64,000 bases of DNA, taken from Rhodothermus marinus DSM 4252 (GTDB lineage Bacteria > Bacteroidota > Rhodothermia > Rhodothermales > Rhodothermaceae). The notes beneath the pieces are model-generated. The model ran no database searches. It was not told the origin of the DNA and saw only the letters and a program-made list of their open reading frames with translations. Positions within the stretch are counted from its first letter, which is position 1. The number at the start of each line of letters is the position of its first letter. Made by a program: the position numbers and the translations under genes. This document shows positions 42,009 through 52,674 of this stretch, piece after piece. The stretch covers positions 2,150,874 to 2,214,873 of the forward strand of contig NC_013501.1 in the NCBI RefSeq assembly GCF_000024845.1, in the 5' to 3' direction.

Positions 42009-42418
42009 ACTATTTTAAGGGCACGTCCGGCCGAAAGGCCAGCGTGGAGTCATACGATTTCTGAGAAATCATAGTGCATGTGAGAAAACACGGGCGCACC
42101 GTAGTGTGCTTCCAGCCCAAGCCCAGAATGAGCGACGCTCGGAACCATCAGAGCCACCCTCCCCCTGGCCCCCTCCCTGGCAGGGAGGGGGAAGCACAAG
42201 AGCGAAAGCCGCGACGCTGCAACACGCGCAGGCGCCTGCCTCCACCGCCAGCCGTAGCCCGTAGACACAGCTCCCCCTGTCAGGGGGAGCTGTCGCGAAG
42301 CGACTGAGGGGGTCATGAGAACCCGCTGCACCATGATATCCAAGAAATCGTATTATAACGCTCCTGGTCCGCCTGCATCATGCGCCGGCGGACCCGGACC
42401 CAAACCTTCAGTAGATCC
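42009..42418. other. gene-free stretch between purH and mreB
   Basis: After the purH terminator, bases 42009-42149 show no gene. Bases 42150-42316 are a structured dispersed repeat (listed separately). Bases 42317-42418 should hold the mreB promoter and leader; ATG 42419 is preceded by AGTAGATCC with no strong ribosome site. Small frames running through the repeat on both strands are Pro/Arg-rich artefacts. Confidence 0.6.
42150..42316 (-). repeat. structured dispersed repeat, copy 1 (family A)
   Basis: Read on the minus strand from 42316: a CCCCCTCAG lead, a 13-base hairpin GTCGCTTCGCGAC (42292-42304), a strong palindrome AGCTCCCCCT/AGGGGGAGCT (42269-42291), then about 75 bases that match the copy at 52401-52530. 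In the 56 bases after the palindrome 44 positions agree. Beyond this, a further inverted repeat CCCCCTCCCTG/CAGGGAGGGGG lies at 42169-42191. No open frame, no terminal transposase signal and no visible target duplication. The form suggests a mobile non-coding element or a transcribed structured RNA. Confidence 0.75.
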
Positions 42419-52400: not shown

Positions 52401-52530
52401 CATGTCACCCCCTCAGGTCCTTCGGACCAGCTCCCCCTCAAGGGGGAGCAGTGTCCACAGGTTACGGCTGGCTGTGAATGCAGGCGTCTACGCCTCTTTC
52501 AACGTCCATGCCTTCCGCTTAATGTGCTGC
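52401..52530 (+). repeat. structured dispersed repeat, copy 2 (family A)
   Basis: Opens with CACCCCCTCAG, then the 13-base hairpin GGTCCTTCGGACC (52416-52428) and palindrome GCTCCCCCT/AGGGGGAGC (52430-52449), then the shared body with GTTACGGCTGGCTGTG and CAGGCGTCTACGCC. Copy 1 is at 42150-42316 on the other strand. The hairpin stems of the two copies differ at three base pairs, each changed on both sides so that pairing is kept. Confidence 0.75.
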
Positions 52531-52614
52531 CAAGGGGGCGGGTTGTTACAGCCACTCTTCTTCGGAAGCTCCTACTGGAAGGGGAGCGAGCCCTGTACCT
52601 GGCTACGAGCGTGT

Positions 52615-52674
52615 GTTTGTAGCGTCAGCCGCACCGAGACGGCACTCCGCTTCGCTCTGTGCCTGACTACAAAC
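52615..52674. repeat. long imperfect inverted repeat
   Basis: Outer arms GTTTGTAGCGTCAG (52615-52628) and CTGACTACAAAC (52663-52674) pair over 12 bp with a 2-base bulge; inside, GGCAC (52641-52645) pairs with GTGCC (52659-52663) around a purine/pyrimidine-rich loop. There is no T tract, so this is not a plain terminator. A REP-like element or the remnant of a mobile element fits better. Confidence 0.6.

Follow-up and report, generated by a model that had tools for sequence, protein, structure and literature searches.

Within the 64,000-nucleotide stretch of Rhodothermus marinus DSM 4252 DNA analyzed here (the window), two intergenic elements share a leader, a small hairpin and a palindrome, and the hairpin differs in bases between them while remaining paired. 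This raises the question of whether the elements act as a folded RNA or are pieces of mobile DNA and, in the latter case, what moves them.

Layout, copy number and relatives of the two elements

The two copies, with their leader, hairpin and palindrome, were borne out by direct reading and by a BLAST search of the genome with copy 1, which returned copy 2 at 79% identity over 107 nt (E 4e-18). Zero matches to the palindrome pattern are expected in shuffled sequence. The features discussed below are as follows.

42156..42313, minus strand: copy 1, palindromic element with leader, variable hairpin, palindrome H2, body, right palindrome H3 and right leader
42313-42305, minus strand: copy 1 leader, ACCCCCTCA
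42292..42304, minus strand: copy 1 variable hairpin, GTCGCTTCGCGAC, that is GTCGC-TTC-GCGAC
42269..42291, minus strand: copy 1 palindrome H2, AGCTCCCCCTGACAGGGGGAGCT
42169-42191: copy 1 second GC palindrome, then CCAGGGGGAGGGT
42156..42191, plus strand: copy 1 right end, CCCTCCCCC-TGG-CCCCCTCCC-TGGCA-GGGAGGGGG (leader first), of BoxC/PIT/TM architecture
42055..42355, no strand assigned: composite insertion holding copy 1, 301 bp, with inverted-repeat ends
52407..52545, plus strand: copy 2, palindromic element with a degenerate right end
52407-52415, plus strand: copy 2 leader
52416..52428, plus strand: copy 2 variable hairpin, GGTCCTTCGGACC, that is GGTCC-TTC-GGACC
52429..52449, plus strand: copy 2 palindrome H2

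The family is considerably larger than the two copies counted in the first-pass annotation. BLAST of the genome found further copies beyond copy 2, and a covariance-model search of the kind the annotation had proposed, here with a model built from 12 copies and run on the genome (3,261,604 bp) with its plasmid and on six other Rhodothermus genomes, matched about 16 places in this genome and 16, 6, 116, 111, 51 and 0 in the other six (51 and 111 being the counts for genomes G004 and G006). With 16 copies in the genome, the possibility that only these two exist is excluded. Five copies form one tandem cluster in the R. marinus genome, and across the family copies lie in both orientations, in tandem arrays and next to unrelated genes, with no common downstream gene. 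Many contigs of the G005 draft (C45, C102, C134-C136, C216, C219 and others) start or stop inside an element copy; because contigs break there, true copy numbers in G005 may be higher.

The closest known relatives of these elements are the BoxC/PIT/TM repeats (PMC4666352). In both, a pyrimidine leader and a short linker precede a palindrome whose 5' arm is pyrimidine, an arrangement that each end of the Rhodothermus element has and that direct reading found in copy 1 and copy 2; both are also intergenic, lack strand bias and occur in many genomes. The Rhodothermus family differs in that its left-end linker is a covarying 13-nt hairpin instead of N3, and in that its two ends are joined by a body of about 90 nt. 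The TM consensus used here, CCCTCNCCC-N3-CCCTCNCCC-N3-6-GGGNGAGGG (the reverse complement of the published form), has no exact match in the window, where the right end of copy 1 misses it by a single base pair; the homologue of that end in a G005 sister copy (L343, 210-244) matches it exactly. The window element is a novel variant within the BoxC/PIT type. As its sequence allows, the leader CCCCCT could act as a third strand to AGGGGG. Holder et al. 2015 described no consensus function for the genes flanking the motif and did not find the E. coli motif linked with mobile elements (PMC4666352).

Although copy 1 is present as described, it is not a plain element, since it sits within the larger 301-bp inverted-repeat composite. 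The composite's arms (42052-42078 and 42327-42353) are 27 nt long and 85% identical, TA is duplicated at its borders, and the same site before mreB is empty in sister genome G002. A clean empty site and a TA duplication were likewise seen for a second composite (L054). Copy 1 is therefore a recent 301-bp insertion, and the composite carries the marks of a MITE, namely terminal inverted repeats, a target-site duplication and an empty site. MITEs with a TA target are of the Tc1/mariner or IS630 type. The composite resembles them in its inverted ends and TA duplication; it is unlike them in that no transposase with matching ends was found here, and the palindromic element also occurs outside the composite. 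Outside the composite the ends of the family are poorly defined: the L051 insertion, about 246 bp long, has an imperfect duplication of 7 bp, and its borders lie outside the leader. We considered the genome's own IS630-like transposases as movers of the composite and rejected them, as none of the three loci found carries its ends.

The composite's inverted ends are related to a separate repeat family of about 25 copies. Its members are interspersed, about 240 nt long, with ends ATACGATTTC...GTGCATG and CATGCACCGGTAAATCAGCGATCCCATAT and an inner GTAGGGGCGGACCCCTGTGTCCGCCC-like repeat, and they occur in this genome at L010, L012-L016 and L019-L030, and in the window as the right part, at 42052-42099. 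An imperfect hairpin repeat, GGCACTCCGCTTCGCTCTGTGCC, lies at 52641-52663 and is also present in the same genome at L048 (about 5519), L020 and L022.

DUF559 genes beside the repeats

DUF559 genes often have palindromes of this kind close by, and we took this as a lead for a test. Stand-alone DUF559 genes were scored for a leader-plus-palindrome (TM-like) unit within 200 bp, in one set from element-bearing genomes (set 1, n=56) and one from the phylum of R. marinus, not chosen for the repeat (set 2, n=16). A unit lay on at least one side of 50 of the 56 genes in set 1 and 15 of the 16 in set 2 (together 65/72), and on both sides of 28/56 and 10/16 (together 38/72). Among random segments of the set 1 genomes, the corresponding counts were 23/351 and 1/351 (DUF559 flanks versus random segments, Fisher p about 1e-26 and 8e-15). 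Among flanks of other genes, most of them non-coding, 6/63 had a unit, and a distal control in the phylum loci, scored with a simpler palindrome criterion, gave 7/100 and 0/100. The statistical association between DUF559 genes and the repeats is strong. The palindrome follows the DUF559 stop codon at a median gap of 21 nt, and examples of the gene with such a unit beside it come from Picosynechococcus, Deinococcus, Azospirillum, Pseudanabaena, Neisseria, Shinella and E. coli; in Sphingomonas the palindrome is downstream only. Two Rhodothermus genomes carry their DUF559 gene within an array of the window's own repeat family. The DUF559 frame often enters the 3' flanking repeat (L217, L218, L244, L269, L272), so the repeat supplies the last codons of the gene.

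DUF559 appears to be a new neighbor of such repeats; within the open-access papers searched, a set without bioRxiv, no earlier report of the link came up, though one may exist elsewhere. Most repeat copies are not beside a DUF559 gene, and in the 2-kb neighborhoods of pattern-found repeats in named genomes, no protein family specific to the repeats recurs, so the link becomes visible only when one starts from DUF559. We detected no stand-alone DUF559 gene in this genome or in G004 or G006. A DUF559 domain is present on the R. marinus plasmid (L057, C2:64828-65043) within a 1268-codon open frame; many DUF559 domains of the phylum are likewise embedded in open frames about 1100-1400 codons long.

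Stand-alone DUF559 proteins, of about 120 residues, form a family of Vsr-like PD-(D/E)XK endonucleases. A Rhodothermus member matches Pfam DUF559 at 3e-35, and all 23 diverse DUF559 proteins compared share residues D51, E62, D64 and H68. The DUF559 profile matches two solved structures, 3hrl ('endonuclease-like protein', 3e-35), which we take to be from Neisseria, and 3r3p ('Mobile intron protein', 5e-5), presumably I-Bth0305I. The closest known enzymes are the Vsr-like homing endonuclease I-Bth0305I and the Vsr repair endonuclease. DUF559 genes differ from that of I-Bth0305I in being free-standing and bracketed by palindromic repeats, not located in introns.

The E. coli K-12 representative is ycjD, flanked by sapF and fabI; an exact TM motif follows it at a distance of about 170 bp on the downstream side. 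A ycjD-type gene is present in 3362 of the 5426 complete E. coli genomes, and DNA resembling the repeat beside it is found at a median of four sites in each genome. Among E. coli genomes without ycjD we found no clean empty site at the locus, because these genomes carry other genes there. In K-12, part of the ycjD 3' end is repeated in the interval that separates the gene from its downstream BoxC/TM motif (L400, 1303-1340 and 1401-1439), a trace of past rearrangement.

The pairing of a small enzyme gene with palindromic DNA recalls REP/REPIN elements and their RAYT enzymes (PMC3733652, PMC3116915), which are likewise short, palindromic, non-autonomous and clustered, with a small nuclease or transposase gene adjoining in some genomes. 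There the enzyme is a tyrosine transposase; here it is a PD-(D/E)XK nuclease. CGTC-tagged REPs have been reported without a dedicated transposase (PMC3733652, PMC3116915). A RAYT partner was ruled out for R. marinus, whose genome has no match to PF01797 (Y1_Tnp).

Taken as a whole, DUF559 is at present the best candidate for spreading the repeats, and we lean toward reading both window copies as non-autonomous interspersed BoxC/PIT-type DNA that is probably propagated in trans by DUF559 nucleases. Repeat-rich genomes without a detected stand-alone gene weigh against mobilization by DUF559, as do the location of most copies away from the gene, the poorly defined ends of the family outside the composite, the missing link to mobile elements for the E. 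coli motif in Holder et al. (PMC4666352), and the fact that no transposition of a DUF559 unit was caught among the loci compared.

In a different role, DUF559 would be a repair or structure-processing nuclease (VSP-like, or removing hairpins or triplexes) kept beside repeats that spread otherwise, for example inside transposase-moved elements. Caulobacter VsrA, a DUF559 protein, triggers an SOS response and DNA damage when a cytosine methylase is deleted and has been interpreted as a mismatch-repair endonuclease; the passages that deal with it do not mention repeats (PMC12907096). The window family also travels inside a TA-target inverted-repeat element, and several copy-rich genomes have no detected stand-alone gene. 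Such a role, however, leaves unexplained both the two-sided bracketing at about 20 nt in many phyla and the accessory status of the gene in E. coli, and none of the three IS630-like loci here has the composite's ends. We therefore consider it unlikely, while counting it the most serious competitor to propagation by DUF559.

Pairing under base change

Three stem pairs are altered on both sides between copy 1 and copy 2, exactly as the first-pass annotation claimed, and a larger sample strongly supports a fold that is kept while its bases change. We fixed only the flanks of the hairpin (CCCTCAG ... CAGCTCCCCCT) and left the 11-19 bases between them free. In the genus, the free part of the matches is nearly always a perfect hairpin, apart from a few one-step mismatches, and its stems include GTCGC, GGCCC, GCCGC, GGTCC and GCTGC, each with its complement; the reversed flank pattern gave almost no matches. 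Of 141 matches in named genomes and viral contigs, 96 pair throughout, on a wide variety of stems 5-8 pairs long, and fully paired, mostly different stems occur in Alphaproteobacteria, Clostridia, Chloroflexi, Bifidobacterium and others. The two window elements thus belong to a DNA repeat family scattered over many bacterial phyla, in which bases change and pairing is kept.

For a quantitative estimate, 32 distinct 29-mers (left ends) were pooled from the genus and other phyla. Of their stem cells, 96.3% are paired, and 35 cells are changed on both sides, compared with 10.7 in shuffles. The covariation score is 0.543, against 0.151 for shuffled sequences and at most 0.114 for slid controls. 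Among twelve 300-bp elements sharing 88-100% identity with copy 1, four different stems occur, all fully paired and none broken. Kept pairing under base change is real and exceeds chance; its cause is less certain.

The annotation took the paired changes as a sign of selection on a folded nucleic acid. The pairing itself stood, but the step to selection is less secure than the annotation put it: block swapping between copies would yield paired changes in the absence of selection, and so would palindrome-correcting mutation. Pairing could then have been kept for mutational reasons, through block replacement by gene conversion or palindrome-correcting template switching. In L055, which is 95% identical to copy 1, 8 of about 16 differences fall within about 37 nt at the left end, a cluster of about half that fits recombinational block replacement. 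The stems belong to few recurring classes, and the genus lacks one-step intermediates for the G-to-C transversions at pairs 2 and 4 but has them for the T-A/C-G changes (GCCGC/GCGAC and GTCGC/GCGGC). Yet a large variety of stems, 5-8 pairs long and paired throughout, is seen across phyla, and block swapping can spread pairing but cannot create new paired stems. Moreover, the stem of copy 2 is identical at the orthologous G005 site (C139:240-268), and the loci are therefore not constantly rewritten. A purely mutational origin accordingly strikes us as improbable.

A functional RNA, whether a small RNA, a riboswitch, or an mRNA-stabilizing or -terminating hairpin, is far less probable still: the stem pairs covary and a transcript of copy 1 is predicted to fold stably (z -4.5), one of copy 2 more weakly (z -2.6), but the palindromes fold about equally on either strand, copies occur in both orientations, in tandem arrays and beside unrelated neighbors, an Rfam search of the window returned one tRNA only and matched neither copy, copy 1 is missing upstream of mreB in sister genomes, and E. 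coli PIT/BoxC elements are reported to lack promoter and terminator activity (PMC4666352). Given the mixed orientations, the unrelated neighbors, the absence of Rfam matches and the 301-bp insertion with its TA duplication, the elements behave as mobile or passenger DNA and not as a regulatory RNA. The small-RNA and RNA-switch suggestions are not supported, and the third suggestion of the annotation, a self-mobilizing non-coding element, fits best.

A possible route of propagation and its meaning

The hairpin and palindrome probably serve as single-stranded or extruded DNA ends, recognized while the unit is copied or moves. Acting in trans, the likely partner would be a DUF559 protein of the stand-alone type, whose own gene is bracketed by units of the same kind. 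We propose that this nuclease would nick or cut at the structured ends and that host repair would then fill the break with a copy of the unit, much as in homing. In R. marinus the partner would be gone, with only the fused DUF559 domain remaining on the plasmid, and copy 1 probably last moved as a passenger of the larger TA-target element.

Knowledge of BoxC/PIT repeats goes back to the 1990s, but their spread has had no explanation, and DUF559 is a little-studied family that has so far had no generally accepted role. The physical link between the two offers a testable answer to both problems in E. coli K-12. It also shows how covariation in a stem can come about in mobile DNA rather than RNA. 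We tentatively suggest, as a possibility short of an even chance, that stand-alone DUF559 proteins, including E. coli YcjD, may be the propagating enzymes of BoxC/PIT-type repeats in many phyla: a selfish PD-(D/E)XK system that would recognize structured DNA ends and in which the hairpin may diversify while its fold is kept.
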